Assembly: GCA_030065755.1 (NCBI GenBank)
Contig: JASJDA010000059.1
Location: 1-46,513 of the forward strand
Source: Prochloraceae cyanobacterium
Lineage (GTDB): Bacteria > Cyanobacteriota > Cyanobacteriia > Cyanobacteriales > JASJDA01
Direction of reading: 5' to 3'
Length of the DNA stretch: 46,513 bases
The translations under genes and the position numbers were made by a program. This document shows positions 4,616 through 27,844 of the stretch, in pieces (the first letter of the stretch is position 1; each line of letters starts with the position of its first letter). Below the pieces are notes generated by a model, which made no database searches, was not told the origin of the DNA, and worked only from the letters and a program-made list of their open reading frames with translations.

Positions 4616-4649
4616 TGTTAGTTACTGTTACAGGATCTTGATGTTGGGT

Positions 4650-5540: not shown

Positions 5541-5603
5541 CAAAAATTTAACTCCCGATCGAATAGAATATTGACTGAATAACTCCAGTGAGAGATTTGG
5601 TGT

Positions 5604-6491: not shown

Positions 6492-6530
6492 GTGAAAAAA
6501 ACATAGTGTTAAATATTTTAGAAGGGAGCG

Positions 6531-7424
6531 TCAATCAATATATTCACCTTGTCCGATCGCTCGATATACTTGGCGAATCATGTCGTAATCAGAATCATTA
6601 GCTGCAACTAAACTACCTCCTTTAAACTTGGATTCAGCAGCGATAATGCCCTCCATTAGTTTGTCCTGATTGGCTAGCATCTGCGAGCGCATGGTGTGAA
6701 TAAATTGAGGAGTAAGTTGGCTGTTAGCAATAAAGACATCGTTAGGAAGTAGTTTTCCTCGCGCGATCGCGGGAAAGTCTTTTTGAGATAAACCTCGATC
6801 TTGAAGATATTTTTCGTATCTGTAAATAACTACTCCCCAAGCATCCACCTCGCCATTTTTTAAGGCTTCTAAGGCCTGTTTGCCGTGGGTCTTATCATCT
6901 AAAACAACAACTTTAAGATCCGATTGAGGATTTAAGCCCGCTTCGATTAGCAATTGCATAGATCCGAGATGGCTAGCAGTAGAAGCTAGGTTAGTCACGA
7001 CTATAGTTTTACCTTTTAACTGAGCCAATGACTTGATGCCGCTATCGGCACGCACGGCAATTACGGAGCGATAACGCAATCGAGTCAGAGCAATTACAGG
7101 AATTGCTTTGGCCCTGGAATGGAGGATGACGTATTCTGACGGTCCCGCCAAAACCAAATCTACTTGGTTCTGTAATAGGGCTGGTGTTGCCGCAGTATAA
7201 TTAACTACAGGATAAAATTCAACATCTGTTTTTAATACCTCTTGTAGATCGTCTTTAAACTTTCCGTAATTTTGCTCTAATTCTTCCAAACCTGAGGCAT
7301 CTGTGACGGCAAATCTAAGCTTTTTTAGTTTGGGAATTGTTTTTTTGTCATTTGAAGTATTTGTGGCTGTAGTGCAGCCAGTTAAAAACAGAAGGGAATA
7401 AGTGAGAAAATTGCGTCGTTTCAT
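6531..7424 (-). CDS. PhnD-like periplasmic binding lipoprotein 3 (mosaic of its neighbours)
   Basis: 297 residues. The signal MKRRNFLTYSLLFLTGC has lipobox LTGC (C17) and a Tat-like RRNFL motif. The first ~115 residues share runs with lipoprotein 2, for example PALLQNQVDLVL and SRAKA. From about residue 120 on it follows lipoprotein 1: RYRSVIAVRA, SGIKSLAQLKGKTI, DAWGVVIYRYEKYLQDRGLS, DKLMEGIIAAESKFKGG. This pattern fits gene conversion or unequal crossing-over. It is the first complete gene after the EAL remnant at 7494-7604. The ligand is unknown. As for the other three lipoproteins, no ABC permease or ATPase gene is present in the window. Confidence 0.88.
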   Translation of the reverse strand: MKRRNFLTYSLLFLTGCTTATNTSNDKKTIPKLKKLRFAVTDASGLEELEQNYGKFKDDLQEVLKTDVEFYPVVNYTAATPALLQNQVDLVLAGPSEYVILHSRAKAIPVIALTRLRYRSVIAVRADSGIKSLAQLKGKTIVVTNLASTASHLGSMQLLIEAGLNPQSDLKVVVLDDKTHGKQALEALKNGEVDAWGVVIYRYEKYLQDRGLSQKDFPAIARGKLLPNDVFIANSQLTPQFIHTMRSQMLANQDKLMEGIIAAESKFKGGSLVAANDSDYDMIRQVYRAIGQGEYID

Positions 7425-7493
7425 CTTAGAAAAAGTAGTATAAAATTTGCGATCGGTAAATTATTATCAGTTCCAGTTACATTCGGTTTTTTA

Positions 7494-7604
7494 TCATGTA
7501 ACTACTTTTATTATTCCCTTTTTACTGCTCGATAATAACTTTTCAAATTCTTTTACTGGTAAGGGAGGACTGAATAAATAGCCTTGGATTTCATCCCATT
7601 TCTG
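7494..7604 (-). pseudogene. C-terminal remnant of an EAL-domain (c-di-GMP phosphodiesterase) gene
   Basis: A 36-codon open stretch, closed upstream by a stop at 7605-7607, encodes DEIQGYLFSPPLPVKEFEKL and then SSSKKGIIKVVT. It is almost the same as the last residues of the complete receiver-GGDEF-EAL protein ending at 15698 (DEIQGYLFSPPLPAAEFEKL, SSSKQGIIKAVA). The DNA similarity continues about 30 bp past the stop codon in both places. The rest of the gene has been lost. It therefore marks a second EAL gene that once lay between the kinase ending at 7683 and lipoprotein 3. Confidence 0.85.
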
Positions 7605-7682
7605 TTATTTTATTTACTATTCAATTGACTCCATATAAGATACTTAAAACTAGGCATTCTATCGATACTGCTACTCTTTTTG

Positions 7683-9797: not shown

Positions 9798-9847
9798 TGA
9801 CGAAATAATTTTTGATAATGTAATGTTTTTTGAATAATGAACACTTT

Positions 9848-12106
9848 TTACGGCAGATATTGCTCGACTAAATTAACGATCGCCTTTTCTTGAAAACCTC
9901 GAGCCAATTCTTGGAGTTTGGCAGCAAGAGGAGCGTATTTTTCGTCTAATTCCGCCAGATAAATCGCTCTTTCGCGAATTTTCTTCATGCTGCCTAGCAT
10001 AGCTAGCTCGTAGAGTATTTCCATCTCTTCTGGAGGCGGAGCAATTAAAGTTTGAGTGGCAGTAGCTTCCGTTATTACTAGATCCGGAGAACTGGATTCG
10101 GCTACATCCTCGTAAATCCAATCCAACTGTAAATACTCTTGTAACAAAGCCAGTAACTTTTGCTCGTCTACTGGTTTGGGTAAAAATGCATCACAACCAA
10201 CAATCTGACTTTGCTTCCTGTCTATTTCCAGGACGCTAGCAGAGATGGCAAAAATAATTACATTCTCGATCTCGGAAATCTCTCTAATTTCTTTGACTGC
10301 TTCAAAGCCTGTTTTGACGGGCATGGCTAAATCAATTACAATACAATCTGGTTGTATTTCCTGTGCCAGTTCGATTGCTTGTTGACCATTTTTCCCTAAA
10401 ATAATTTCAAAATCTAGCGGTTCGAGCAGATTCTGTAATACAAGAAGATTCTCTACTATGTCATCGACTATCAGAATCTGTTGCCGTTTGCCTTGATAAC
10501 CGACTATTCTTCTTTGTTCAGTTAATTTATCCTCAGCCGTTACTTGTTCGACGACGGGGAAAGTCGCTTCAAACCAGAAAGTTGAACCTTGACCTAATTC
10601 GCTGCTGACTTGTAATTGACTTCCCATTAGTTCTACCAATTGTCGGCTAATGGTTAAGCCCAAACCTGTTCCCGTTTGACTGTATTCTATCTGTCCTACT
10701 TGTTCAAAGGGTTGGAAGATTTGTTCTAGTTGTGAGGGACTAATGCCTATTCCCGTATCCCTTACTTCAAAACGGAGAGTTTGTTGATTGGTCTCTATTT
10801 GTTTGTCTTCTGAAGTTGCTGGAACTAGACTAATATCTAAAATTACTTGTCCGCGCTCGGTAAACTTCATTGCATTACCAAGTAAGTTCAGTAATACTTG
10901 TCGGAGTCTTGTTTCATCGGCATGAATACCAATAGGGAGAGAAGATTGAGCCTGGTAGTGAAACTCCAAGTTTTTGATTTTAGCTTGCATCGCCATAATA
11001 CCCATAATGCTCTCAATAAAGTTGTTAAGGTGAAGCTCGCTAATAACTAATTCGAGTTTGCCAACTTCTATTTTGGCGAGATCGAGGATGTCATTAATCA
11101 GCGTAAGGAAATGATTACCACTGTTGTAGATAATATTTAAACCTTTAGTTTGTTTAGAGGTTAAAGTTCGATCGCGCCTAAGAATTTGAACGTAACCCAG
11201 AATTCCGTTAAGGGGAGTACGCAGTTCGTGACTCATCCTAGAGAGAAAGGCGCTTTTAGCTTGATTAGCAGCTTCCGCTTTCTCCTTCGCTTGCTGCAAT
11301 TCCCCTAGGGTTTCCTCTAGCTGAATGGCTTTTTGTGAAGCCAACCGTTCGCTTTCTTGTAAACTCTCAATTACTTTTTTGAGCTTGGCAGTCATGGTAT
11401 TAAAAGCATTAGCCAAAATAGATAATTCATCTTTACTATGAACCTCGATTTGGTGATTGAGATCTCCCTGAATTAAATACTCAGTGGCTTTAGTCATTTG
11501 AATTAGAGGTTCGGTAATCGATTGACTCAGCCACAGTGAAACTGTCGTGCCGATAATTACCACGATCGTGGCTAAGATAATACTTTGATTGCGTTCGGCT
11601 ATATTCTTATGGCGTAATTTTGCTGTAGAGAGTTCTACAGAGATTGCGCCAATTGTTTCGTGGCTCAAAATAATCGCCTTGCCAGCAACCAGACGATCTG
11701 ATTGCCAATCAAACAAGATTGTCCGACGCTGTAAAATCTTCTTGCCTAAAGGATCTGCTGTTAAGGTAAATGGGTGTTGCTCCTGAGTTTCTGTATTGGC
11801 GATAATCTTGCCGTCTTTGTTATAAATACGGCTAGATAGTAAGATTTTTTGGAGAGTTAATTCATCGATGATATCGTTAAGGAGCTCGAAATTACCAAAA
11901 TAGACTGAGTCAGTAGTTGATATGAGCAGAGTATTTAAGAGAACCTCTGCTTGTTGTTCCATTTCTTGGCGAAAGATTTGGTGATTGCGATAAATTGATA
12001 CAAAAGTTGCACTACCAATAGAAATAGAGACTAAACCGGTCATTACCAGGGTCAGTTTGGCAGCTAGAGGTATTTGCAGTTTTGAGAATTTATGCTTCCA
12101 CTTCAT
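9848..12106 (-). CDS. Membrane hybrid histidine kinase (periplasmic sensor-HAMP-HisKA-HATPase-REC)
   Basis: 752 residues. Membrane segments at about 18-38 and 174-194 enclose a ~135-residue extracytoplasmic mixed alpha/beta region ([33 protein letters not shown]) resembling CHASE/Cache-like sensors. HAMP (195-245) and a coiled coil follow. The H box is [12 protein letters not shown] (H293), and N, G1 (RDTGIGI) and G2 boxes are present. The receiver has IVDD, the aspartate of VIDLAMP and the lysine of LPKPVD. The ~65-residue helical tail closes the protein. The ATG follows directly on the stop codon of the binding lipoprotein gene (TAAATG at 12104-12109), so the two are almost certainly translationally coupled and should act together. 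Confidence 0.92.
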
Positions 12107-13063
12107 TTATTTATTTTGATATTTTTGATAAAGGTCTTGGATTTTGTTTAAACTGTTATCGTTAGGAATTTTGTCAAACTTAGTTGTCTTATTAAATTTT
12201 TTTAGTACTGCTTTACCTTTGTTAGTTTTATCCATTGCTAATAGTATTGACGAAATTTCCTCAATTTGGTCTACTAACATATCTTCCCTAACCATGACCA
12301 GATTGCGAGCTAACTTATCTGTTTTCGCTAAGATGAGCGATTTATTCTTGATTTCTGCTGATAATTTTTCAAAGCTTTGATTATCTGTCGCTGCTGCTTC
12401 TACTTTTCCACTGAGCAACCATTCAAGACTATTTTCATCCTCATAACTGAAAACATATCCCACGTATTCCTTCGATACCTGAGTACTATATACACTTTTT
12501 TCTATCGGATTGAGTCCAGATTCTATAAGTTTAGCTAGAGGCAACATATAGCCTGTGGTAGAAAAAGGATCTTCAAAAGCAATAATTTTCCCTTTTAAAT
12601 CTGACAGAGAATTAATATTGTTATCTTTCATAGTAAAAATCACTGAGTAATATTCGGCATTACCTTTTTTCCAGCGACGCAAAATCGGTTTGGCATTAGC
12701 ACCATTCATAGCTAGCATCGCAGGATAGGGGCTGTCTATATAAAGATCCACTTCCCCAGATTTAAGCCAGGCGATCATGGTATCCATATCACGAGCAATT
12801 TTCACTTTACCGAGATCGAATTGGTCAGAATTAGCAGCTAGATAATCAGCTAAAGGTTGGATTGTCCTAATTTTTTTTTGCGGGTTATCAGAAATATCCG
12901 CCAACACAATCGTCTTTTGTACTTCAGGCGATTGATTGGGCTCGGAAACCTTCTTGGGAGAAGTATTAGTTTTAAGTATATTTTGAGGACTACAAGCCAC
13001 AATACCAAATACGATTAAGGCCAAACTGATAAAAGTTAAAGATTTGTTTTTCAAAATCAGCAT
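12107..13063 (-). CDS. PhnD-like periplasmic binding lipoprotein 4 (coupled to a kinase)
   Basis: 318 residues. The signal peptide ends in lipobox GIVACS (C24) and lacks the RR motif of the other three lipoproteins. The mature protein shows the phosphonate-type binding fold: KTIVLADISDNPQKKIRTI, YLAAN, DLYIDSPYPAMLA, NINSLSDLKGKIIAFEDPFSTTGYMLPL. It is only distantly related to lipoproteins 1-3. A likely ribosome site AGGAAA overlaps the stop of the upstream kinase gene, 10 bp before the ATG, and its own stop touches the ATG of the next kinase. The kinase-lipoprotein-kinase order with such spacing suggests a periplasmic receptor for one or both kinases. The ligand is unknown. Confidence 0.9.
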   Translation of the reverse strand: MLILKNKSLTFISLALIVFGIVACSPQNILKTNTSPKKVSEPNQSPEVQKTIVLADISDNPQKKIRTIQPLADYLAANSDQFDLGKVKIARDMDTMIAWLKSGEVDLYIDSPYPAMLAMNGANAKPILRRWKKGNAEYYSVIFTMKDNNINSLSDLKGKIIAFEDPFSTTGYMLPLAKLIESGLNPIEKSVYSTQVSKEYVGYVFSYEDENSLEWLLSGKVEAAATDNQSFEKLSAEIKNKSLILAKTDKLARNLVMVREDMLVDQIEEISSILLAMDKTNKGKAVLKKFNKTTKFDKIPNDNSLNKIQDLYQKYQNK

Positions 13064-13073
13064 GATATTTTTC

Positions 13074-15437
13074 CTATAGATATTGTTTGACTAAATTAAC
13101 GATCGCTTTTTCTTGAAAACCTTGAGCTAATGCTTGAAGTTTGGCAGTCAGAGGAGCATATTTTTCGTCTAATTCCGCCAGATAAATTGCTCGTTCTCTG
13201 ATTTTTTTCATACTCCCCAACATGGCTAGCTCGTAGAGTATTTCCATCTCTTCTGGAGGCGGGGCAATAAAAGTTTGAGTGGCAGCAGCTTCCGTTATTA
13301 GTCGCTCGGGACAACTCGATTCGGCTACATCCTGGTAAATCCAATCCAACTGTAAATACTCTTGTAATAAGTCAAGTAACTTTTGCTCGTCTACTGGTTT
13401 GGGTAAAAAGGAATCGCAACCCATGAGCCGACTTTTTGCTCGCTCCATTTCTAGGACGCTAGCAGAGATGGCAATAATAATTACATTCTCGATCTCGGGA
13501 ATCTCTCTAATTTCTTTAACTGCTTCAAAGCCTGTTTTGACTGGCATGACTAAATCGGTCAAAATACAGTCTGGTTTGATTTGCTGTGCCAGCTCTACTT
13601 CCTGTTGACCGTCCTCTCCTAGAGTTATCTCAAAACCTAACGGTTCGAGCATGTGCTGTAAGACTAGACGATTCTCTTCTTTATCGTCGACTACCAGAAT
13701 CTGTCGCCGTTTGCCTCGATAACCGACTATTCTTCTCTGTTGAGTTAATGTATCCTGAGCCGTTACTTGTTCGACCACGGGGAAAGTCGCTTCAAACCAA
13801 AAAGTTGAACCTTTTCCTAATTCGCTGCTGACTTGTAATTGACCTCCCATCAGTTCTACTAATTGTCTACTAATGGTTAAGCCTAAACCCGTTCCTGCTG
13901 CTCGCCGTTTGACATCTGAGGCTTGTTCAAAGGGTTGGAAGATTTTGGTTAATTGTTGGGGACTCATGCCTATCCCTCTATCCCTAACTTCAAAGCGAAG
14001 AGTTTGCTTTAAACTGCTATCCTCTGATTGCTCTTGCTGAAGAGAACTTACTAATAAAGTAACTGTGCCGCGATCGGTAAATTTAACGGCATTGCCCAAG
14101 AGATTGAGTAATACTTGTCTCAGTCTTTTTTCGTCGGCTTGAATACCTGTAGGGAGATCGGGTAAAGCTTCGTATTGAAACAAGATATCTTTTTCTGTGG
14201 CTCGCATTTTAATAATGCCTGCTACATCTGAAAGAAAGCTGGCCAGATGAATATCGGTTAAATATAGTTCTAGTTTGCGAGCTTCGATTTTGGCGAGATC
14301 GAGGATATCGTTAATTAAGGTCAGTAAGTGTTTGCCACTTTGATAAATAATTTTTAATCCCTTGTCTCGATCGGGAGTTAAATGGCGATCGCGCCTGAGA
14401 ATTTGAGCGTAACCGATAATGCCGTTGAGGGGGGTGCGAAGTTCGTGGCTCATGCTAGAGAGAAATTCACTTTTGGCTTGACTGGCTACTTCCGCTTGTT
14501 CCTTGGCTGCTTGCAGTTTAGTGGTGCGATCTCGAACCTTTTTTTCCAAGGTATGACTATAGTCATGAATGAGACTGGCCAGTTTGCTGTAAGTATCTAT
14601 CATATAGCTAATTTCATCGTCTTGATGCCCTTCGATCGGGTAATACACCTGGGAATAGTCTGCTGAGGATTGTCCATTGCCGATCTGGTCTTTAGAGCTA
14701 TAAGCCTGGCGCGCTTGATGACTCTCTTCTAGAAAATTTGTAAAGCGGACAATCCGACGCATGGGGTTCATTACCACAATCGTTAAAATACCTGAGCAAG
14801 CCAGAATCATCAGAATGAGTCCGCTTGTACTGATGAGTAAGAAATTCCTGATATATCTTTTATTATCTTGTAATAGCTTTTCTCGGTCAGCCTGAATCTG
14901 CTGTAACACTTGGGTTAACTCTCCTGCGACTTTACCGCCTTTTCCCCTAACAAATCGATCGCCAGCTGTGCGATCCTGCGTTTTCTCAAAAATTTCGATA
15001 CCTTGGTAGTAGATATCCATCAATTGGGCATGGTTGCGGACAAACAGCTTTAAGTCAGCCCGATAAGTTTCCGCCAAAGGGTTTTGTAAAATTTCGTCTA
15101 TTTTTGTTTGAATATTCTCGCTCATCTCATTGACACGACCGAGATATTTGTCCATATCCTTCTTATCGTGCCCTCGCAAAAACAAATTTTTGCGGTCTTT
15201 TGCCTGACGAATGAAGTATTTGTTAACGGTTTCTACTTCACGGCTAAGTTCGTCAAACTCCAGGAGCGATTGGTTAATCATTTCAAGTCTACTAGCAATG
15301 AAATAAACTGAGACTGATATCGTCGAAATCAAAAAAAAGGCATACCCACCTAAAAACCACAAAGTTTTATTGAGTACACTTGTTTTGTGAGGTCGATTAA
15401 GCAGAGATATCTTTTTAGTCTTTTGAGAAGGATTCAT
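13074..15437 (-). CDS. Membrane hybrid histidine kinase with helical-bundle sensor
   Basis: 787 residues from the ATG at 15437; a TTG at 15452 would add five residues. Membrane segments (about 26-49 and 197-224) enclose a helical-bundle periplasmic region containing KNLFLRGHD, a motif common in four-helix-bundle sensors of chemoreceptors. A HAMP-like/linker region and coiled coil follow, then the H box [13 protein letters not shown] (H331), N box, G1 (RDRGIGM, with R in place of the usual T) and G2. The receiver has VVDD, the aspartate of LTDLVMP and the lysine of LPKPVD. The helical tail ends in KQYL. The DNA from 13074 to about 14507 is nearly a copy of the kinase ending at 7683. It is the first kinase after the EAL gene. 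Confidence 0.9.
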
Positions 15438-15550
15438 AATTGTTACTAACAATCGAGGAAATTATTGAGTTTGAGGCGGCTCATGAATTTATGGGGGTTC
15501 AATAGTTCCAGGTTTAGTATTCCCTCCCAGATAAGTCAATTCGATGCGCA

Positions 15551-15697: not shown

Positions 15698-17449
15698 TCA
15701 TGCAACTGCTTTTATTATTCCCTGTTTACTGCTCGATAATAACTTTTCAAATTCTGCTGCTGGTAAAGGAGGACTGAATAAGTAGCCTTGGATTTCATCG
15801 CATTGATGTTTCCTCAATATAGCCAATTCTGCTTCGGTTTCTATTCCTTCGGCGATCGTTCTCAAGCCGAGCAGATTTGACATCTCAATAAAGGATTTGG
15901 TAATGGCATCATTAGTAGGATTTGTGTTAATGTCCCGTACGAAACACTTATCAATTTTGAGAATATCGAAGGGGAATTGTTTCAAATAGTTGAAAGATGA
16001 ATAGCCAGTACCAAAATCATCTAAAGCCAGTTTTATTCCTAACTTTTTAATTTGATTTAAGCGCTGAATGTTAATATCTACGTCATCGATGAGAATTTGT
16101 TCGGTTAGCTCTAGCTCTAGATACTGAGGAGCTAATTTTGAATCTGATAAGCTTTGCATAATTATGCGGTACAAATCTGGTTGCTTTAATTGATTGGCAG
16201 AAAGATTCACCGAGACCCGAATTGGCTCTAATCCGTCTCGATGCCAAGCACTAACTTGACGACAAGCTTCCTGCAACACCCAAGTACCAATGGGGTTAAT
16301 TAAACCACTTTCCTCGGCGATCGGAATAAATTGGTTAGGACCAACGACTCCTCGCTTGGAACTAAACCAGCGTAACAGTGCCTCAGCAGCAACGATTTGA
16401 CCAGTTTTGAGATTAATTTGTGGTTGATAATAGATTTGAAATTCTTCTCTTTCTAAGGCATAGTAGAGATCTGCTTCTATGCTTAGGTCGCCACTAGTAG
16501 GAATTTCGAGATCTTCGCCATAAAACTGATATTGATTTTTACCCTGTTGCTTAGCATATTTCATTGCTTTAGTGGCATGGCAAAGTAATTTATTAATCTC
16601 CTGACCGTCGAAAGGATAGCAAGCAATACCCAGGCTAGCGGTCATAAAAATTTCTCGCTCGTCTATTAAGAAAGGACGACGAAGTTCCCCAAGGATATTT
16701 TGAGCATAATTAGCTACTGAATGTTCGCCGCTTAGTGGATTGAGGATAATGGCAAATTCATCATTGTTCAAACGAGCGATCGAGCCATTATTACCAATGC
16801 AATTGCTTAACCGTTGGGCAATAATTTGCAAAATTAAGTCCCCGTTTAAACTGCCCAAAAAATCATTGATTCTCCCGAAACGATCTAAATTCAGACAAAT
16901 AACCGCTATTCTAGTATTTAAACGATTATTTATATCTTGTTGCTGCTCCCAACCGAAACTCAAAATATCCTCGAACATATCTCGTAACAATAGCTGATTG
17001 GGAAGATCGGTCAAACTATCGTAATACATCCAATCTTTGCGGGAATCTTTGGCAAGGGATTGCTTAATTTTTACTTGCTCTTGATGTTTACTCAGTGCAA
17101 TCTTAATGGTGGCGTGTAATTCTTTTTCCTTAAAAGGTTTGAGAAGATAACCGTAAGAGCCAGTTTTCGCGGCTCGCTCTAGAGTTTCTTCATCTGCATA
17201 AGCTGTTAAATAAATAACAGGAATATCATCGATCTCTCTAATTTTGGCAGCAGTTTCAATCCCGTCCATATCTCCTTTGATAGCAATATCCATCAGGATT
17301 AGATCGGGCTTAGTCGAACTAGCTTTTGCGATCGCCTCTTTTCCCGATGAAACAATTCCATTAATGGAATAGCCAAACTTTTTGAGTTTTCTAGATAAAT
17401 TTTTAGCAATCAACAATTCATCTTCGACTATTAATATGTTAGTTGTCAT
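15698..17449 (-). CDS. Receiver-GGDEF-EAL protein, probable c-di-GMP phosphodiesterase
   Basis: 583 residues. The receiver (1-120) has VEDE near the start, D54 in LILMDIAI and the lysine of LLKPF. A GGDEF domain (about 140-305) has the signature changed to LNNDEF (227-232), so cyclase activity is unlikely. The EAL domain (about 325-575) is complete in its visible catalytic motifs: EALLRW (356-361), NLSANQL, LELTEQ, DDFGTGYSSF, KIDKCFV, AEGIETEAEL, QGYLFSPPLP. The likely role is to break down c-di-GMP when the receiver is phosphorylated by a kinase of this array. A good ribosome site AAGGAG lies 6 bp before the ATG. It is the first complete gene of the minus-strand run. Its 3' end has a decayed copy at 7494-7604. 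Confidence 0.92.
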   Translation of the reverse strand: MTTNILIVEDELLIAKNLSRKLKKFGYSINGIVSSGKEAIAKASSTKPDLILMDIAIKGDMDGIETAAKIREIDDIPVIYLTAYADEETLERAAKTGSYGYLLKPFKEKELHATIKIALSKHQEQVKIKQSLAKDSRKDWMYYDSLTDLPNQLLLRDMFEDILSFGWEQQQDINNRLNTRIAVICLNLDRFGRINDFLGSLNGDLILQIIAQRLSNCIGNNGSIARLNNDEFAIILNPLSGEHSVANYAQNILGELRRPFLIDEREIFMTASLGIACYPFDGQEINKLLCHATKAMKYAKQQGKNQYQFYGEDLEIPTSGDLSIEADLYYALEREEFQIYYQPQINLKTGQIVAAEALLRWFSSKRGVVGPNQFIPIAEESGLINPIGTWVLQEACRQVSAWHRDGLEPIRVSVNLSANQLKQPDLYRIIMQSLSDSKLAPQYLELELTEQILIDDVDINIQRLNQIKKLGIKLALDDFGTGYSSFNYLKQFPFDILKIDKCFVRDINTNPTNDAITKSFIEMSNLLGLRTIAEGIETEAELAILRKHQCDEIQGYLFSPPLPAAEFEKLLSSSKQGIIKAVA

Positions 17450-18493: not shown

Positions 18494-20056
18494 TTATTCT
18501 TCTTTAGACTTATCTCGCATACCTCTAACAATGCGAGATAGTTCGCTTTTTTCATCAATACTAATCCGAGTAGGCGAACCACTAATAATCCGTTCGTAGT
18601 GGCGGAAAGAATCTTTAATGTCTGGCCCGTCCTGACTAATACTATATTCGCGAATTCCTTTATCGTGCCAAGAACCTCGCATTTTAAATACGTTAACAGC
18701 CCTAGACATTTCCCCTCTAATTTCTACGTATTGCAGCATAATAATCGTGTCTGTAATGGTAGAAATATGAGACTCTGTAATCGAATGCGCCCCCATAAAT
18801 TGATCGGTGGTATTGGTGAAGAAACCTGTTATTTCTTCTTGTTTGGCATAACCAGTAACCCCAATGACAAACTGTCGGAACGCATTGTTAGTTACGCCTC
18901 TAGCCATTGCAGACAGGGAATCGATCGCAATGCGAGAAGGTTTAAATTCGATAATTTCGGATTTAATCATTTGTAAGTGATCTTCTAAACCTGCTGATTC
19001 TGGATAAGAACACAGCAATTTTAGTAGTCCTTTTTTCTCCATCTCCTCAAAGTCAATTCCCCAAGAGAAAGCATTACGGGATAGCTGGGCTCTCGATTCT
19101 TCGTAAGCAAACAAGATCGCTCTCTCGCCTCGTCTGCAACCCTCTTCTAAAAACTTACTTACCAACAAAGTTTTTCCAGTTCCGGTTGCTCCTGTTGCCA
19201 GAATAATCGAATCTTTGAAGAAACCACCACCGCACATTTCGTCGAGAGTTTTGATCCCAGAAGAAATGCGCGCGTTGGAAGAACGCTGAGTGAGCCGCAT
19301 TGCTCCGAGAGGAAATATATTAATCCCCTCGTTAGTAATAGTGAAAGGATATTCCCCTTTCATGTGGGTCGTACCGCGTAGTTTGAGTATTTCAATGGTA
19401 CGACGGCGGCGTTCTCCTTCTATAACATTGCGAACAATTGCTACATTATCCGAGACAAATTCCTCTACGCCAAAGCGAGCAATAGGGCCATATTCTTCTA
19501 TTCGCTCTGTGGTCATAATTGAGGTAACTTGTAGCTGTTTGAGCCTGGCAACTAAACGGAATATTTCTCGCCTAACTACAGAAGCAGCATCGTACTGCTG
19601 AAATACGGCAGTTACAGAATCAATAGAAACTAACTTTGCTTTGTACTTGCGAATAGCATACTGAATGCGCTCAATTAAGGCAGAAAGATCGAAATTTCCT
19701 ACTACTTCTTGACCTTCTGGATCTGGAGAAGCATCGAGAATAAATAATTTTCCCTCATCAACTAACCTTTGTAAATCCCAGCCAAAGCTACAGGCATTTT
19801 GAATAATATCTCTAGGAGATTCTTCGAAAGTAACAAATAATCCTGGATAATCAAAATATTTGATTCCGTTATAAAGAAATTGTAGCGCTAGTAAGGTTTT
19901 GCCTGTACCCGAAGTTCCACTAACAAGACTGGTTCTTCCTATTGGTAGACCTCCGTGGGTGATCTCGTCAAAACCTTCAATCATTGTCCGGATTTTTTTG
20001 ACACCCTTGTCTTCTAGTTCGTCTCTTTGTGGCCCATTTGTATTAAGTTGATTCAT
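18494..20056 (-). CDS. kaiC: Circadian clock protein KaiC
   Basis: 520 residues, one longer than the Synechococcus elongatus protein as I recall it. CI domain: Walker A GTSGTGKT (47-54) and the catalytic pair in TFEESP. CII domain: Walker A GATGTGKT (about 289-296) and YEESRAQ. The autophosphorylation segment HSITESHISTITDT keeps the threonine, serine and threonine equivalent to T426, S431 and T432. The C-terminal tail FRHYERIISGSPTRI, the region that binds KaiA, is intact. KaiC is an ATPase and autokinase whose roughly 24-h phosphorylation cycle, driven by KaiA and KaiB, times gene expression through SasA/RpaA-type outputs. kaiB lies 97 bp upstream and the two are probably co-transcribed. 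A likely terminator follows at 18424-18453. Confidence 0.99.
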   Translation of the reverse strand: MNQLNTNGPQRDELEDKGVKKIRTMIEGFDEITHGGLPIGRTSLVSGTSGTGKTLLALQFLYNGIKYFDYPGLFVTFEESPRDIIQNACSFGWDLQRLVDEGKLFILDASPDPEGQEVVGNFDLSALIERIQYAIRKYKAKLVSIDSVTAVFQQYDAASVVRREIFRLVARLKQLQVTSIMTTERIEEYGPIARFGVEEFVSDNVAIVRNVIEGERRRRTIEILKLRGTTHMKGEYPFTITNEGINIFPLGAMRLTQRSSNARISSGIKTLDEMCGGGFFKDSIILATGATGTGKTLLVSKFLEEGCRRGERAILFAYEESRAQLSRNAFSWGIDFEEMEKKGLLKLLCSYPESAGLEDHLQMIKSEIIEFKPSRIAIDSLSAMARGVTNNAFRQFVIGVTGYAKQEEITGFFTNTTDQFMGAHSITESHISTITDTIIMLQYVEIRGEMSRAVNVFKMRGSWHDKGIREYSISQDGPDIKDSFRHYERIISGSPTRISIDEKSELSRIVRGMRDKSKEE

Positions 20057-20153: not shown

Positions 20154-20468
20154 TTACATTTCAGGGTCTCTCTCTCTAATTTCTTCGTAAAGAAGATCTA
20201 AGCCTATTAACACTTTCTCACGATCGGACAGATCTCCAATAATTTTGCGTACGGGAGGTGGCAAAACTTTGGATAGAGTTGGTGTTGCTAATATTTTATC
20301 CTCTTCAGCTAGTTGGGGATTTTTTAGCACGTCAATCACCTTTAAAGCATAAACTCCTTGAAAGTCTTGTTCGAGAATATTTTTAAGTGTTTTCAAGGCT
20401 CTCACGGAGTTGGGAGTATTGCCAGCTACATAGAGTTTTAAAACATAGGTTTTTTTAAAAGCGCTCAT
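20154..20468 (-). CDS. kaiB: Circadian clock protein KaiB
   Basis: 104 residues, with the conserved core [40 protein letters not shown] and [20 protein letters not shown]. KaiB binds the CI ring of phosphorylated KaiC after switching to a thioredoxin-like fold and then sequesters KaiA. The protein differs from that of S. elongatus mainly in the N-terminal residues and the C-terminal tail ([11 protein letters not shown]). The gene lies 98 bp after kaiA and 97 bp before kaiC. The kaiA-kaiB gap is long enough to hold the usual separate kaiBC promoter, though I see no clear -35/-10 pair there. Confidence 0.99.
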
Positions 20469-20566: not shown

Positions 20567-21520
20567 CTAATCTATTTGAAACAATAAGTCATAGGGAATG
20601 TCTTCTCTTGGAATCGAGCGACGGTACATTTCACAAAGATGCGCAATCAGATCGATTAAAGCCAAACGGTAATCGAGTAAAATTTCTTCGCTTCTTCCTT
20701 CTAACTTTAGCTGTTTGGCAAATTCACCCATTAGTGCCATGTGCATTTCTAAAATTTGAGAAACTGAAATATCTGCAAAAAAAGCCCGATTGATAAATTG
20801 ATCTATCGCCTGATTGGTCGCAGCATCATCTCCAAAATAATTAAGAATAATTTCCCTATACTCTAAATTTAATTGTTCTAATAATTCTTTTTTCTCTTCT
20901 TGGTTGAGATTACGATAAAAAGACTTAGGATTTCTTTTGTAGTATACTCCAAGATATCCCAACCTTTCCTTAAGTTTTTCCGCTAATCGACGCTGTTGGA
21001 GCATGAGAAAATTTTGTTTGGTTTCCAACTTTTGCGGTTCGCTAAGAGTAGTTGATTTTTCAGCAATACTACAACTTGGCCCTAAGTGGAGAAACTTGCC
21101 GATCGCAGAATCGATAGAAGAGGCTATTTCTTCTAATTCCGTCGATAAGAGTTTAACTTCCCCACTATGGTATATATGTTTGCCGTCGTCTTCTACTTCC
21201 TCAGAGCGATTGAGATCGTTTTGGAGTTTCGATTCACCCTGGCGATCTATAATTACGATTGCTGGCAAGAGCGTTCCTTGCTCGTATAATAGATGAAGTA
21301 AGGGTAATAGAGCTTTTTCTAGTAGCACTATTAAACAATCAACTTGCTCTTTGTGTTCTTCGATAAACTTTACTAATTCCCCAGGAGACTCAACCATATT
21401 TAATTTATAGCGATCTCCGCTCAGTAATTCAGCTATCGACTGAGCTAACTTTTTTTCAGTAACAAAAATACAAATAGATAATTGAGAGTTCAAGGGATTA
21501 CGAGCGAAAATTACTTTCAA
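20567..21520 (-). CDS. kaiA: Circadian clock protein KaiA
   Basis: 317 residues, full length and longer than the ~284 of S. elongatus. The N-terminal pseudo-receiver (about 14-135: LSICIFVTEKKLAQ, DCLIVLLEKALLP, LLPAIVIID) lacks the phospho-aspartate, as expected. An extended linker (about 136-170) accounts for the extra length. The C-terminal four-helix domain carries ERLGYLGVYYKRNP, RAFFADISVSQILEMHMALM, RSEEILLDYRLALIDLIAHL and CEMYRRSIPRED. This domain dimerises and pulls on the KaiC tail to stimulate KaiC autophosphorylation. A later start near LSICIFV would match shorter homologues. The divergent neighbour at 22028 shares a ~500-bp upstream region with it. Confidence 0.98.
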   Translation of the reverse strand: MKVIFARNPLNSQLSICIFVTEKKLAQSIAELLSGDRYKLNMVESPGELVKFIEEHKEQVDCLIVLLEKALLPLLHLLYEQGTLLPAIVIIDRQGESKLQNDLNRSEEVEDDGKHIYHSGEVKLLSTELEEIASSIDSAIGKFLHLGPSCSIAEKSTTLSEPQKLETKQNFLMLQQRRLAEKLKERLGYLGVYYKRNPKSFYRNLNQEEKKELLEQLNLEYREIILNYFGDDAATNQAIDQFINRAFFADISVSQILEMHMALMGEFAKQLKLEGRSEEILLDYRLALIDLIAHLCEMYRRSIPREDIPYDLLFQID

Positions 21521-22027
21521 ATAGTTGACCTCGGTTTTGGCTTGGAGACAAATTTCAAATTGCCCACTTAAATTTCCATCCTAATTCTTCTAAAAACTTA
21601 ACATCCATTGTCCCTATGTAAAAATTGTAATTAATTTTAACTAATTGGTTTATAGCTTTCTAGTTCGAGAGTAATAATTAAGTAGTAGTTCCTAATTAAT
21701 TATTACTTCCTAACGTCAACTTCCTAGATATTACATCGATTGATTTTTGTCAATAGTCAATGTAGAGTAAAGAGTGGTTGACAGGGCAGCTCGTCTAATT
21801 GTAACAAAATGTTACCGACAGCGATCGAAAAATGCCCGATATAAACCCGATCGCTTATTCTATCTGCCTTATATTTAATTACTTTAGTACAGGGTTCCCA
21901 AGATATAAATATAACTATAGAGCTTTCCAGACTTCCTTATTTTCAGGCTTCCTTGGAAACAACTAGAAGCTAAACAATAACTTCAAGAACTCCAACAGCA
22001 AGTTTTTCTCAATCGAACAGATTGTTA
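21521..22027. promoter_or_regulatory. Divergent promoter region between kaiA and the CBS kinase
   Basis: 507 bp without a gene. On the plus strand TTGACA (21778-21783) is followed after about 18 bp by a weak TAACAA, a possible promoter for the rightward kinase. The sequence is AT-rich and contains a short near-repeat, GACTTCCTT / GGCTTCCTT (about 21929-21956). No terminator or RNA gene is evident. Control elements for kaiA must lie here, but I cannot place them. Confidence 0.4.
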
Positions 22028-24889
22028 ATGTCAACAACTACACTCGCCCTCAAAAATTTTATTCAGCTAACTCCTATTTGTAAACAGCTTGCCAATTTTG
22101 AAGTTGTGCTAAGCGCCTTTCAATCTGGTCAGTACGACACCCTAGTCTTGGTGAGCGAATACAATTATCCCATAGGAGCTATCTCCTGTAGCTACTTCCT
22201 CTCTCATTTGATTAAACACAATAGGTTGAAGAAAATAGATTCAATTGGCTCTAATTTTAATCCAACCGAGCAACAAGATATTGTACCTAGAGAGGAACTC
22301 AACTCTTTAATTGAGCCAATTGTGAGCTTAAACGCCGAAATGAGCGTCAAAGAATTTTGCTCCTATTTACAAGGGACAAAAGAGCAAAAGAGATATGCTC
22401 TAGTAGATTCAGAAGGGAAGTTTTTGGGACTTTTAAATATCGGGAGTCTACTGAAACATTTATTACCATTAACTAGAGATTGTCAACAGAACAATGGCAA
22501 AACTCTTTTCGGAAATATAGAAAAGACAATACTATCTTTATTAGAACAACTCCCATTTCCCATAAGATTAGAAAATACTCTAGGTCAAATGCTATATCAT
22601 AATTTGGCTTGGCGCAACGATATTGGGGAATTTATGGCTGGGGAAAAGAGCTCCAATGCCTCTGACGTGACAATTTATACAAAAAAACACAAAGCTATTT
22701 CCAGCGCACCAGAAAATAGCTTAAAGCATAAAAAAACCTCGACTTTTCAAGCCGATCGCCTGCAAAATCAAGCCCCTGAAAACACTACGCATTTGGCTCG
22801 ATGTTCAGCCCGTGCAAAAAGCAGAGAGGAAGAGCTAAATATAGGTTTAGAATTCAACTCGGAGGCAGCTACAACTTTCTGCCAAAAACAGGAAATTAGG
22901 CCCGATCGCCCCAGAAAAAAAATAAGACAACATAGAACTACGGGGCAGCTTGAGACTGTTTCTTTGAGCTCGAAAACTCCTGACGAGCATTTATGGCAAT
23001 TTACCAAGTTTCCCTTGAAAATTTCCACAGACTCAAAAATTCCCTCGGATACAGACTTAAACCTAAGAGTAGAACCAACCAAATTATCTTTTTCTCATTC
23101 TATTCAAGCAAATTCTCATTCTTCCTCTAAAGCACGGGCAGAATGTAATAAAAAAGACAATCTTGAGGATATTTTAGGTGATTGCAAAACGAATTCTGAA
23201 GATTTAGCGGTTAGATTAGCTTTAGAATCAACTAGCGCCTCTCGCAGCGATCCAATACCTTCAGGAGATTCTAGTTCGGAAGAATCTCCTATTTGGTTAA
23301 TTATGGGAGAAAAAATAACACAACAAGAACAATTATGTCAAGATCTGAAAGCCAAAAATTCTGAGCTAATTCAATTAAATCATTGGAAGAATGAATTGCT
23401 AGCCAGTATTAGCCACGAAATTAAATCTCCGCTAACAGCGATTGTTGGTTTATCTACCCTCTTACAAGAGAAAAGATTGGGAAAACTAAATCAACGTCAG
23501 GCTCGCTATGCAGAACAAATTTATCACAGCGGTCGCCAGCTAATGAATCTGGCAAATCAGCTTCAGGATTTAACTAGTTTAGAAAGCGGACAATTAAAAT
23601 TAACCCTAGAACAAGTAAATATTAAAGAGACCACTCAGCGAGTATGGGAAACCATACAGCAAAAATATCCTGATGTTATCGGAGCTGAGATTAAATTTAC
23701 TATTGAAATTGAACCAAACACGCAGGTGCTACTAGCAGACGAGTTACGCTTGCATCAAATGCTGGTTTACCTAGTAGAAAATGCGATTGAATTAATAGAA
23801 GCTGAAGGTCAAATTCATTTGAAGGTCAATCGCTGGCAAAATTGGCTTGCCTTTACAGTTTGGGACACTGGAATAGGAATTCCACAAGAATCTCAACCTA
23901 AAATCTTCCAACAATTACAACAAGATAAAAATTATCTCCCCAGCGATCGATTACAAACAACTGGTTTAGGACTGATATTAACCCAACGTTTGGCTAAAGC
24001 TCACGGAGGAGATATTTCTTTTATCTCTTCTTGTGGTAAAGGAACTCAATTTACCTTATTGCTTCCTCATAACACAGATTTCTTGAACGCCGAGACTGAG
24101 TCGAGGGAGTCTAAAACACAAAGCGATTGCACTTTTCCTATAGTGTTACTGGTCGAGTCAACATCTCAAAATATTGCCAGTATATCAGAAGAACTTATTG
24201 ACCTAGGATATCAAGTAGTTATTGCTCGATCGGGGAAAGAAGCACTCTCAAAAGCCTATAAGCTTCAACCGTTTGCTATTTTAGTTAATGTAGGCTTACC
24301 CGTACTTTCTGGCTGGGAAGTTTTGCATCTGCTCAAATCAGACGATCGCACTAAAAAAATTCCAGCGATCGCCATCTCAAAAGAAATTGACCGACAAATC
24401 AGTAAAGAAAAAAGCGCAGATGGCTTTTTATCCTTGCCGATCGACAAACAAGCTTTACAAGAGATTTTTCCGCAGCTAGATCTCAAACTGTCTCCTCAAA
24501 CAAAAAATCTGACAATTTTATGCCTCCATCCCGATCCACAACAAATAGGTTGGGTCGGATCTACGATCGAATCTCAATTATCTGGTTTCAAGCACCGAGT
24601 TTTAGAAGCTGATTCTCTAGAACAAGGGGAAATTCTCGCCCGCATCTGGAAGATTGATGTAATTGTCCTTGACGGGACTCCTGTTTGCGAACCCCTTTCT
24701 TATTTGCGATCTCTAAGTAAATGCGAGTCTTTAGCTTCTTTACCGCTGGTTACTTGGAATGCCAAAACTACTGAAGCAGCCAATCAAATAAAAGGTCTTA
24801 GCGTATTTCCCTGTTTGGTTCCAGTCAAAAAACGAACTTTGACTCATTTACTACAAGCTATTCAAATTGCAGCTAAAATTAGCGATTAG
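22028..24889 (+). CDS. CBS/PAS-like hybrid histidine kinase with degenerate receivers, divergent from kaiA
   Basis: 953 residues from the ATG at 22028; a TTG two codons earlier is less likely. The N-terminus (about 1-140) reads as a CBS-domain pair (YDTLVLVSEYNYPIGAIS, RYALVDSEGKFLGLLNIGSL). A PAS-like stretch (165-195) and a ~230-residue low-complexity polar linker follow. The kinase is complete: H463 in SISHEIKSPLTAIVG, N box VENAIEL, G1 DTGIGIP, G2 TTGLGLILTQRL. The first receiver (about 700-815) has lost its key residues: VES for the acidic pair, N754 in place of the phospho-aspartate (ILVNVGLP), and LP without the lysine. A second receiver-like domain (820-945) keeps an aspartate in VIVLDGTP. 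It is not SasA, since the KaiB-like N-terminus is missing. Position suggests, but does not prove, a clock-linked role. Confidence 0.85.
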   Translation: MSTTTLALKNFIQLTPICKQLANFEVVLSAFQSGQYDTLVLVSEYNYPIGAISCSYFLSHLIKHNRLKKIDSIGSNFNPTEQQDIVPREELNSLIEPIVSLNAEMSVKEFCSYLQGTKEQKRYALVDSEGKFLGLLNIGSLLKHLLPLTRDCQQNNGKTLFGNIEKTILSLLEQLPFPIRLENTLGQMLYHNLAWRNDIGEFMAGEKSSNASDVTIYTKKHKAISSAPENSLKHKKTSTFQADRLQNQAPENTTHLARCSARAKSREEELNIGLEFNSEAATTFCQKQEIRPDRPRKKIRQHRTTGQLETVSLSSKTPDEHLWQFTKFPLKISTDSKIPSDTDLNLRVEPTKLSFSHSIQANSHSSSKARAECNKKDNLEDILGDCKTNSEDLAVRLALESTSASRSDPIPSGDSSSEESPIWLIMGEKITQQEQLCQDLKAKNSELIQLNHWKNELLASISHEIKSPLTAIVGLSTLLQEKRLGKLNQRQARYAEQIYHSGRQLMNLANQLQDLTSLESGQLKLTLEQVNIKETTQRVWETIQQKYPDVIGAEIKFTIEIEPNTQVLLADELRLHQMLVYLVENAIELIEAEGQIHLKVNRWQNWLAFTVWDTGIGIPQESQPKIFQQLQQDKNYLPSDRLQTTGLGLILTQRLAKAHGGDISFISSCGKGTQFTLLLPHNTDFLNAETESRESKTQSDCTFPIVLLVESTSQNIASISEELIDLGYQVVIARSGKEALSKAYKLQPFAILVNVGLPVLSGWEVLHLLKSDDRTKKIPAIAISKEIDRQISKEKSADGFLSLPIDKQALQEIFPQLDLKLSPQTKNLTILCLHPDPQQIGWVGSTIESQLSGFKHRVLEADSLEQGEILARIWKIDVIVLDGTPVCEPLSYLRSLSKCESLASLPLVTWNAKTTEAANQIKGLSVFPCLVPVKKRTLTHLLQAIQIAAKISD

Positions 24890-24928
24890 CTATTTGCTGT
24901 TGGCTATTTGCTGTTGGCTATTTGCTGT
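24889..24928. repeat. Three tandem copies of a 14-bp unit
   Basis: TGGCTATTTGCTGT is present twice (24901-24914 and 24915-24928) and once without its first two bases (24889-24900). It begins at the last base of the CBS kinase stop codon and ends at the stop codon of the convergent glycosyltransferase gene. Such units are common between cyanobacterial genes. Confidence 0.85.
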
Positions 24929-26871
24929 TAATTCATGCTCCCCATCTCCCCTAACCTCTGACCTCTGACCTCTGACCCCTGACCCCTCACTCCAGCTTCA
25001 GGAGCGAAGACTTTCTCTTTAGCAACTCTAATTAATTCATAGGCCCCTTTTTCATTTAAAGACTCGTAATCTTGGGCCGCTAGAGGTATTTTGCTGATAA
25101 ACTTTTTTTGACTTAAAATCAATAATGAATCAGAGTGTTTTGAATAATTTTCAGGATCCTTTGCATATACTCTGAGAAAAAATTGGTTTTTAAAAAACTG
25201 TACCGGACGTTGGGTATAGAAAACTATAGAAGGTTTTTTAATACCGATCGCCCATAAGTCTTCTCCTGGTTGTTGAACTCGAACAATTGTTTGGCTCAAT
25301 TGTCTGAGAGGAAGTTGACGAAGGTTATCGAGCATAAAGAAAGCGGGTGTAACGACGAAAACAAAACAAGCAACAAATCCGATACAATTCGTTAAACTCA
25401 ACCAACCCCATCGCTCTCTTTTACTCAATAAGATGATGCTAATTGCTGCAGTTGTTGCCCAAATAATTCCACCTCGCCCAGTCAAACCAGATGCTCGTAA
25501 TGATTCGCGTAAGTTAGGTGCAGTTGGATCGGGACCAAAAAAATTAGTAACAAAGACAAAAGCAATTGCTAATAAAATTAAAAACAAAATATTAACAATA
25601 GCACTGAGTAGAAAACCGTAACTATTTTTTTGTTGGTTTTTCTGGCCAGAAGATAGTGAATTTTTAGTTAATTCTTCACTCCATAATAGAGCTACGAGAA
25701 TTGCTCCCGCAGGCATTAGAGGTAAAACATAACTGGGTAATTTAGTTACTGAAATACTGAAAAAAATAAAAATTACAGCAAACCAAAATAGTGCAAATAA
25801 ACTTAATTGAGCGTAACGAGGTTGTGCTACCCAAAAATTTCGCTGCCAAACTCTTTGACGAGCGATCGCCAGTGGCAAATAAATCGACCAAGGAGCAAAT
25901 AAACCCAACACTATTAAAAAATAAAAATACCAAGGAGCCCAATGATCGTTAACTACACTAGTAAAGCGTTCAAAATTGTGATAGCCGAAAAATGAGTTAA
26001 TATAGGCGCTGCCATTTTCTAAAATAACCAAAACATACCAAGGGACGGTCATTAATAAAAAAATCAATCCTCCCCAAAAAACTCCCATTTCTGCTAAAAC
26101 TTGCCTAAATTTACCTACATAAAGCAGAAAAAGGCAAATAATCAACCCTGGCAAAACAATACCAACAGGACCTTTCGTTAAAACTGCTAAACCCAGCAAA
26201 ATATAAAAAGCGAGATACCAACTGTTGGAGATTTTAGAAAAGGGATTTTGGAGAATAGATTGAGAATGCTCTTTTTTGGTTTTGGAAACATATCCGTGGA
26301 AAAAACAGAAAAGACTTCCTCCCATACAACCACTCAGAAGCATGTCAGACACCCCCAAGCGCGCCCAAATGAGTGTTTCCATATTGAAAGCAATGAGAGC
26401 AGAGCCGATCCAAGCAGATAGCCATAATTGTCGTTGGGTTCGTCCGCTTTGGAGTGCTTGGGGTTGGGTAGCAGCGGGGTTAGCAAAACCAAAATAGCGC
26501 AAGATGTAAAAACCTAGTACGGTGAGAGCGATCGCTGCAAGGACTGAGGGGAATCTGACCGTCCAGGAGTTGAGACCAAATAGCTTGTAACCAATTGCCA
26601 TTAACCAATAAACTAGAGGCGGCTTGTCAAATCTGGTTTCGCCGTTGAAATAGGGGGTAATCCAATTACCTGTAACTGTCATCTGACGAGCTGCTTCAGC
26701 AAAAAGAGGTTCCGTTTCGTCAATTAATCCCGTATTGCCTAAATTCCATAAAAAAGCTATCCAAACGATCGTTGCTAACCAGACAATTGAGAATATCCAG
26801 GTACCTTTTGGATCTTTCTCAAAAGTTTGCCACCACTGTTCGATCGTCTCAGCTACCTTAAATTTTTTCAC
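24928..26871 (-). CDS. GT39 family (ArnT-like) membrane glycosyltransferase
   Basis: 647 residues from the GTG at 26871. A cytosolic N-terminus is followed by about 11-12 membrane segments. The first external loop carries the family signature: DETEPLFAEAARQM, NWITPYFNGETRFDKPPLVY. This is the acidic catalytic loop of enzymes that transfer sugars from polyprenyl-phosphate carriers (ArnT/PMT type) in the plasma membrane. The acceptor is unknown; lipid or surface glycan modification is plausible. The last ~25 residues, with VRGQGSEVRGQ, are not part of the family and are encoded by the heptamer repeat at 24953-24987, so the original stop codon was probably lost. The response-regulator gene lies 265 bp upstream, with hairpins between, so co-transcription is doubtful. 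Confidence 0.88.
   Translation of the reverse strand: MKKFKVAETIEQWWQTFEKDPKGTWIFSIVWLATIVWIAFLWNLGNTGLIDETEPLFAEAARQMTVTGNWITPYFNGETRFDKPPLVYWLMAIGYKLFGLNSWTVRFPSVLAAIALTVLGFYILRYFGFANPAATQPQALQSGRTQRQLWLSAWIGSALIAFNMETLIWARLGVSDMLLSGCMGGSLFCFFHGYVSKTKKEHSQSILQNPFSKISNSWYLAFYILLGLAVLTKGPVGIVLPGLIICLFLLYVGKFRQVLAEMGVFWGGLIFLLMTVPWYVLVILENGSAYINSFFGYHNFERFTSVVNDHWAPWYFYFLIVLGLFAPWSIYLPLAIARQRVWQRNFWVAQPRYAQLSLFALFWFAVIFIFFSISVTKLPSYVLPLMPAGAILVALLWSEELTKNSLSSGQKNQQKNSYGFLLSAIVNILFLILLAIAFVFVTNFFGPDPTAPNLRESLRASGLTGRGGIIWATTAAISIILLSKRERWGWLSLTNCIGFVACFVFVVTPAFFMLDNLRQLPLRQLSQTIVRVQQPGEDLWAIGIKKPSIVFYTQRPVQFFKNQFFLRVYAKDPENYSKHSDSLLILSQKKFISKIPLAAQDYESLNEKGAYELIRVAKEKVFAPEAGVRGQGSEVRGQRLGEMGSMN
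24953..24987. repeat. Heptanucleotide tandem repeat inside a coding 3' end
   Basis: Five 7-bp units in succession: AACCTCT, GACCTCT, GACCTCT, GACCCCT, GACCCCT. This is the short tandemly repeated repetitive sequence type known from cyanobacteria. On the minus strand it is translated as part of the glycosyltransferase tail. Confidence 0.9.
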
Positions 26872-27113: not shown

Positions 27114-27140
27114 TTAAGTTTTTTACAATAAAAAACTTAA
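27114..27140 (-). terminator. A/T hairpin overlapping the response-regulator stop codon
   Basis: TTAAGTTTTTT (27114-27124) and AAAAAACTTAA (27130-27140) form an 11-bp perfect stem with a 5-nt loop. It includes the TAA stop codon of the regulator gene. It is a plausible terminator or mRNA-end stabiliser, though GC-poor. Confidence 0.5.
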
Positions 27141-27844
27141 TTATTACTTAAGGCAGTTTCAAACTTATAGCCAACTCCCCTAACAGTATGAATTAACGAT
27201 GGCTCCGAGGAATCAGTCTCTATCTTTTTCCTGATTTGACCGATGTGAACGTCAACTACGCGCTCGTCCCCTACGTGCTCGTAATTCCAAACCTTTTGAA
27301 TTAATTCGGGGCGACGCCAAACTTTACCTGGATGGCTGGCTAAGAAATGCAACAGATCGAATTCAAGTGCGGTTAAAAACACCAAACTGTCATTGACTGT
27401 TACTTGTCGGCGTTCTGGGTCAATTACCAAGTTATCAAAGATTAAAGATTGTTGTTTTAAAGGAGTTACAGACCGCTTGCGTTTGAGAATAGCCCTAATG
27501 CGACATTCTAGCTCTACAAGATCGAAAGGTTTGGTTACGAAGTCATCTGCCCCTTTGCCGAATCCTTCTTGTTTGTCAGAAGTATCAGCGCGGTTGGTTA
27601 GCATGAGAATAAAGACGTCTGTTCGACTCTGCATTTGTTCGCACAAGTTAAAACCCACTGTATCTGGCAGGTTAATATCGAGAATAACTAGATCGGGACT
27701 AAATTTGTTAAATGCTTCTAAAGCATCTTTTCCATTATCAGCAGATTCTAGTTGATAATCTTTCTGATTCAAAAAGCGAACGATTAAATTGCGAATTGCG
27801 GGGTCGTCGTCCACAACAAGAATTTTGGCTGCGGGCATAGTCAT
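27137..27844 (-). CDS. OmpR/PhoB-family response regulator
   Basis: 235 residues. The receiver (1-120) has VVDDD, phospho-acceptor aspartate in LVILDINLPD, and the lysine of DDFVTKPFDL. The winged-helix DNA-binding domain (about 135-230) shows LTALEFDLLHFLASHPGKVW, RPELIQKVWNY, RVVDVHIGQIRKKIE and HTVRGVGYKFE. No kinase gene is adjacent, so the partner kinase lies elsewhere. It resembles, but as far as I can judge is neither of, the clock/light regulators RpaA and RpaB, whose receivers differ. Two ATGs (27844, 27838) are possible starts and the ribosome site is weak. The next gene rightward (28285) is divergent. Confidence 0.93.
   Translation of the reverse strand: MTMPAAKILVVDDDPAIRNLIVRFLNQKDYQLESADNGKDALEAFNKFSPDLVILDINLPDTVGFNLCEQMQSRTDVFILMLTNRADTSDKQEGFGKGADDFVTKPFDLVELECRIRAILKRKRSVTPLKQQSLIFDNLVIDPERRQVTVNDSLVFLTALEFDLLHFLASHPGKVWRRPELIQKVWNYEHVGDERVVDVHIGQIRKKIETDSSEPSLIHTVRGVGYKFETALSNN

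Follow-up and report, generated by a model that had tools for sequence, protein, structure and literature searches.

A conserved kaiA-linked histidine kinase with degenerate receivers as a candidate clock kinase of cyanobacteria

The input and output network of the KaiABC clock (CikA, SasA, LdpA, Pex, and RpaA/B) has been defined in S. elongatus. The kai locus of a Prochloraceae cyanobacterium, carried on contig JASJDA010000059.1 (46,513 nucleotides, referred to as the window), raises the question of what a large sensor kinase does beside the clock genes, its gene being divergent from kaiA, with kaiB and then kaiC located downstream of the latter (Table 1). The evidence places the kinase in a family of hybrid-type histidine kinases that is conserved, single-copy, and linked to kaiA, and that, on balance, most likely functions in the input and/or output of the KaiABC clock, a role that is the leading idea because of the linkage to kaiA. 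The SasA of the window genome was retrieved elsewhere (G000:C13, 549 bits). Identity of the kaiA-linked kinase with SasA was rejected, since PRK09303 matched the kinase core only (110 bits, versus a cut-off of 342 bits) and the N-terminal KaiB-like domain of SasA was not found.

Table 1. Coordinates of the kai genes, the kinase gene with its domains, and the region between kaiA and the kinase gene in the window
Feature	Position	Strand	Evidence or remark
kaiC	18494..20056	-	NCBIfam TIGR02655 over cut-off
kaiB	20154..20468	-	NCBIfam PRK09301 and TIGR02654 over cut-off
kaiA (N-terminal pseudo-receiver and C-terminal domain)	20567..21520	-	Pfam KaiA 3e-63, KaiA_N 1e-39
Intergenic region common to kaiA and the kinase gene	21521..22027	.	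motif scan
Kinase gene, CBS-PAS-HisKA-HATPase-PsR1-PsR2	22028..24889	+	953 aa from ATG 22028; in-frame TTG at 22022
CBS pair (Bateman module)	22028..22483	+	AlphaFold model, structural matches to AMP- or ATP-bound CBS pairs, motif counts
PAS-like region, with long variable low-complexity insert inside	22505..23323	+	alignment; assignment weak
HisKA dimerisation/phospho-acceptor domain; H465 codon 23414-23416	23387..23590	+	Pfam, H in 78/78
HATPase catalytic domain	23738..24070	+	Pfam; N, G1, and G2 boxes conserved
PsR1, first receiver; N756 (codon 24287-24289) at the phospho-Asp position	24143..24463	+	Pfam, model, N in 75/78
PsR2, family-diagnostic pseudo-receiver; C931 codon 24812-24814	24497..24880	+	model, C in 74/78, genome scans

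The original prediction had located the kinase gene correctly, both in its coordinates and in its divergence from kaiA. Indeed, the ORF is open throughout 22022-24889 (+), and the ATG was taken as the start codon because it fits the family start consensus MSxxxxxLxxF of the ortholog alignment. Residues are numbered here from the TTG, which gives numbers two higher than in that prediction (N754 becoming N756), and residue counts refer to 78 aligned proteins, namely 77 orthologs from named GTDB loci and the window protein. Searches against Pfam returned HATPase_c (6e-22), HisKA (1e-15), one Response_reg (1.5e-9), and a sub-threshold CBS match, and no GAF domain at E up to 1. Because the Pfam CBS match of relatives falls on the first repeat (above the cut-off once), both CBS halves are visible by sequence. 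The AlphaFold model of the first 213 residues (pLDDT 84) had CBS pairs as its top PDB matches, several with AMP or ATP bound (Foldseek, E 3e-8, CBSX2-AMP), and gave a structural match to CBS pairs with Z about 12 over residues 3-149 (VIA). As modelled, two CBS folds pack against each other in this region, as in CBS-pair (Bateman) proteins. The idea that the pair senses adenine nucleotides is weakened: the fold was upheld but not the canonical ribose-binding Asp (motif GhhT/SxxD), the position of which is occupied by Y58 in CBS1, with Asp in 7 of the 78 orthologs, and by S142 in CBS2, with Asp outside the eight commonest residues of the 78 proteins; judging by sequence, neither repeat carries the canonical adenosyl-binding motif of CBS pairs. 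The PAS-like region is bounded by LLExLPLPLMLQTxxG...NxxWR and LWLVLATDxTEQ in the ortholog alignment, and a PAS_8 match was obtained for one ortholog, below the Pfam cut-off.

The kinase boxes are complete, as had been claimed: H465 is present in all 78 proteins, N587 in 74, and the G1 and G2 boxes in about 74, with DxGxG and GxGL present. With its phospho-His in HisKA and its HATPase boxes, the protein qualifies as a sensor histidine kinase. The first receiver is degenerate, as expected, but less so than had been thought. Asn (N756) occupies the phospho-Asp position in 75 of 78 orthologs and L805 that of the catalytic Lys, but the acidic pair, believed to be lost, is only half lost, E712 being kept (E in 70/78) and its partner being S, A, or T. 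The second degenerate receiver was likewise confirmed. The AlphaFold model of the last 252 residues (pLDDT 88) contains two successive (beta-alpha)5 receivers, and PsR2, recognised by the motif RxLEADDLEQAELLARxW...LPLVTLDxxTTEAANQ...GLSVFPCL, adopts the full (beta-alpha)5 fold in it and lacks both the acidic pair and the Lys. Its phospho-Asp position is occupied by Asp884, Asp being found there in 61/78 proteins of one ortholog set and in 24/45 of a second one, with N, E, T, or G occurring elsewhere. A phosphorelay into the clock via Asp884, with PsR2 still being phosphorylated, would fit the frequency of this Asp but would have to operate without the Mg-binding acidic pair and the Lys, and in the face of these substitutions, which makes it very improbable. 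Neither PsR1 nor PsR2 retains all the elements (acidic pair, Asp, T/S, and Lys) that a fused receiver needs for phosphorylation. C931 of PsR2 (motif VFPCL) is near-invariant, being Cys in 74/78 proteins and present too in the deep-branching relatives G132 and G213 (~28% identity); following the secondary-structure register of the AlphaFold model, it probably coincides with the catalytic-Lys position or is one residue away from it. In G059, PsR2 (L051) contains a long in-frame repeat of NYAQS/NYAQG units, inserted near its C-terminal end.

Many orthologs possess a third degenerate receiver (PsR3), which the window protein lacks. A pseudo-receiver is also found at the N-terminus of KaiA, encoded across the intergenic region from the kinase, and a kinship between the two had been suggested. 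This was not borne out, as profile-profile comparison (hhalign) with KaiA_N gave probabilities of 1%, 1%, and 12% for PsR1, PsR2, and PsR3, respectively. As this comparison detected nothing, the idea that the pseudo-receiver of KaiA derives from PsR2 or PsR3, or is paralogous to either, was not retained. Among 117 kinase/KaiA pairs, a third pseudo-receiver was present on the kinase in 20/21 cases in which KaiA lacks its N-terminal pseudo-receiver, the single exception (L112) being cut by a contig end, versus 56/96 with a full KaiA, shared ancestry being uncorrected in these counts.

Conserved linkage to kaiA, on which the original prediction had staked its case, turned out to be far stronger than suggested. 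Strong orthologs of the kinase were retrieved from 43 of the 60 related genomes searched, and in 39 of these 43 same-order genomes the kinase gene shares its contig with a divergent kaiA. Four exceptions were found: G026 resembles a contig break, G003 has the kinase without detected kaiA (assembly of 510 contigs, 96% complete), and in G025 and G050, two same-genus genomes, the kinase truly moved away from kaiA. In a phylum-wide sample of 244 genomes, scanned with a PsR2 profile, the PsR2 domain was present in 68 genomes belonging to 22 families, with one match each, all 68 of which contain kaiA; none of the 143 kaiA-less genomes of this draw had the domain (Fisher 1.5e-35 for co-occurrence over the 244 genomes, shared ancestry being ignored). 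The pair is divergent and within 6 kb in 61 of these 68 genomes, the other seven pairs being on different contigs. Similarly, the divergent pair was found in 68 of the best 80 loci of the GTDB species collection, the remaining 12 lacking kaiA on the fetched DNA, and the named loci with the kinase include Nostoc, Spirulina, Prochloron, and Pleurocapsa. The same-order, phylum-wide, and GTDB samples overlap and are not independent. Divergent linkage, and the fact that in the phylum-wide draw the kinase never occurred without kaiA, support the proposed link to the clock.

A conserved neighbourhood could also reflect hitchhiking, the two genes being ancient neighbours that are functionally unrelated and the kinase belonging to another pathway. 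Other genes recur at the locus as well, the glycosyltransferase gene (24928-26871) being one, but inertia hardly explains a single copy retained at the scale of the phylum and missing from all 143 kaiA-less genomes of the phylum-wide draw. In addition, the kinase diverges fast (mean p-distance of 0.48 versus 0.16 for KaiC) and yet keeps its place, so that hitchhiking is unlikely. Pairwise kinase distances correlate with those of KaiC (r 0.52) and KaiA (r 0.24), with none of 500 permutations as high, and the pair has therefore mostly been inherited together. The receiver composition varies at the locus, four genomes (G020, G034, G046, and G056) having a kinase beside kaiA that lacks PsR1, keeps PsR2, and mostly keeps the CBS pair. 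The glycosyltransferase gene, of the PMT family and encoded on the minus strand in the window, is met again on the far side of the kinase in several families. The locus L138, on a contig titled Candidatus Gracilibacteria, contains a cyanobacterial kaiA and the kinase and is probably cyanobacterial DNA that was mis-binned or mislabelled.

The clock-kinase reading has points against it, namely kaiA-bearing genomes lacking the kinase, a few relocated copies, and the genome without detected kaiA mentioned above. In the phylum-wide draw, 33 of the 101 kaiA-bearing genomes lack the kinase, which indicates that it is dispensable to the KaiABC clock as such; these include S. elongatus-like G089 (identity inferred), the marine-Synechococcus-like family f41, and several unicellular families. 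The absence from an S. elongatus-like genome may be the reason why the kinase has stayed unstudied. In the f29 genomes (L078, L084, and L199), the glycosyltransferase gene abuts kaiA and the kinase is missing, as if it had been excised from the locus. The reduced, endosymbiont-like genome G182 (2.79 Mb; L177) contains a PsR2 fragment with stop codons, with the kaiA and kaiC frames being open.

The region between both genes bears on another explanation, since linkage to kaiA may result from promoter sharing rather than from function. The kinase would then be an ordinary stress or redox sensor, made rhythmic by a bidirectional RpaA/RpaB-type control region shared with kaiA, and without action on the clock. 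Indeed, a direct repeat TTACA-N5-TTACA (TTACAATTAATTACAATT, with exact 10-bp spacing) was found in 28 of 115 shared intergenic regions, amounting to 30 sites versus 1 expected, all of them on the strand of kaiA, and exact sites occur in 33/129 loci with the kinase versus 1/32 without. This repeat resembles HLR1, the site of RpaB (for example TTACAATCGTTTACAA; PMC6331805), and may be the candidate RpaA site reported upstream of kai in Anabaena (PMC8064755). Strict HLR1 sites were absent from the kaiA-kinase intergenic regions, and NtcA sites were not enriched in them (9 versus 6.3 expected). The window itself has a degenerate TTACA tandem on the kaiA strand (21617-21630, -), with 9-bp spacing where relatives have 10. 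The repeat is oriented towards kaiA and mostly located nearer to it, and most loci lack an exact copy; it bears mainly on the control of kaiA. Moreover, co-regulation alone predicts neither the strict absence of the kinase from the kaiA-less genomes of the phylum-wide draw nor its retention where it is separated from kaiA (G025, G050, G147, and G192). Co-regulation without a clock role deserves some weight but is rather unlikely, and a clock input and/or output kinase is the preferred reading.

Among known systems, CikA (the circadian input kinase of S. elongatus, GAF-HisKA-HATPase-pseudo-receiver) likewise combines a HisKA core with a subsequent non-phosphorylatable receiver, and both proteins are connected to the clock, the window kinase by genomic linkage. 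They differ in that CikA has a GAF domain, whereas the window kinase has a CBS pair and a PAS-like region instead; in addition, the kinase family has two or three pseudo-receivers and a kaiA-adjacent gene, and displays no detectable pseudo-receiver sequence match. The PsR2 profile retrieved no CikA or KaiA chains from the PDB at E up to 10, fold alone not being diagnostic, and none occurred among the 50 structural matches listed for the receiver models, a listing that argues against neither. The kinase could nonetheless replace CikA, as an RpaA phosphatase that docks on KaiB and mediates quinone reset, in lineages in which CikA was lost or changed. The common general plan (hybrid-type HisKA core and C-terminal pseudo-receiver) agrees with this, as would the H-box HE(L/I)K(S/T)P, which is compatible with phosphatase activity in HisKA kinases. 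However, the missing GAF domain and the PDB search argue against it, as do Thermosynechococcus and Anabaena, which presumably have both CikA and the kaiA-linked kinase, and replacement is improbable overall. Two further observations fit replacement and count equally for the preferred reading of a clock input and/or output kinase: in Crocosphaera watsonii, a recognisable CikA was reported to be lacking and the sensor kinase to be 'yet to be identified' (PMC12265555), and Crocosphaera isolates carry the kaiA-linked kinase gene (GTDB loci). The redox-sensing kinase noted as unassigned in Crocosphaera thus has a concrete candidate in the kaiA-linked kinase.

ShkA, a hybrid kinase of Caulobacter in which a regulatory pseudo-receiver precedes a true receiver, shares the tandem receivers, with a degenerate one possibly gating the kinase, and was among the structural matches to the first receiver unit (6qrj), a unit that matches many receivers; it differs by its true receiver, as the window kinase has no complete phosphorylation site and no evidence of c-di-GMP control. 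The best Foldseek matches to the PsR1-PsR2 model were PleD-type tandem receivers (one true, one degenerate), which have a GGDEF output, whereas no output domain follows the receivers of the window kinase. The best NCBIfam match was HrmK (NF038297, hybrid histidine kinase/response regulator), covering the kinase core and first receiver with 244 bits, far under the curated cut-off of 725 bits; HrmK lacks PsR2 and has a different N-terminus.

The best reading of these analogies is a kinase that is CikA-like in role and would act on a separate response regulator, a separate partner being invoked since phosphoryl transfer to the fused receivers cannot take place in the standard manner. The HisKA/HATPase core would autophosphorylate and pass its phosphoryl group to, or remove it from, this regulator, for which RpaA and RpaB are the natural candidates. 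The CBS/PAS part may sense a metabolite or the redox state, and a redox or ligand site might be provided by the near-invariant Cys931 of PsR2. The pseudo-receivers may serve as docking or inhibitory modules, either on a Kai protein or on the kinase core. Precedents for both exist, as the pseudo-receiver of CikA inhibits autophosphorylation and binds quinones and KaiB, and that of ShkA gates its kinase, blocking it until c-di-GMP binds (review PMC12632262). A more far-reaching and tentative possibility is that the kinase is an unrecognised clock component that was probably present early in cyanobacteria, the Cys-bearing pseudo-receiver of which, by docking on the Kai complex or by gating the kinase, conveys the redox or metabolic state to RpaA/RpaB, and that would have been missed owing to its absence from S. 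elongatus, the main model. A kinase kept at the side of kaiA in 22 families of the phylum-wide draw would represent a missing input or output arm in a large part of the phylum, filamentous and nitrogen-fixing forms among them.

No paper describing the kaiA-linked kinase was found in the accessible literature, most subscription papers lying outside the search, and the kinase is not named in the consulted parts of a 2017 survey of clock factors (PMC5520375) and of a 2024 study of KaiA3 (PMC11372060). The kaiA gene of Anabaena sp. PCC 7120 is alr2884, and all2883 of the same strain is given in PMC2633013 as a kinase for which a CRP site was predicted; being numbered next to alr2884, on the opposite strand, all2883 is, by its numbering alone, probably the kinase ortholog.

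Further genes of interest were noted in the window and elsewhere in its genome. An OmpR-type regulator (27137-27844) was considered as cognate partner of the kinase but not adopted, as only weak generic matches were found at other kai loci. A second KaiA-like gene occurs in the window genome (L089, 6317-6847; contig C174 of G000), N-terminally truncated, with a 177-codon frame coding for the C-terminal domain of KaiA only (157 bits) and with neither kaiB nor kaiC nearby. Lastly, the minus strand of the window (818-15452) encodes four receiver-bearing hybrid histidine kinases, of which two have HAMP. Their genes are interleaved with genes coding for phosphonate-type periplasmic binding proteins, in repeats of a ligand-sensor/kinase unit that lie upstream of a gene coding for a receiver-GGDEF-EAL protein (15698-17449).
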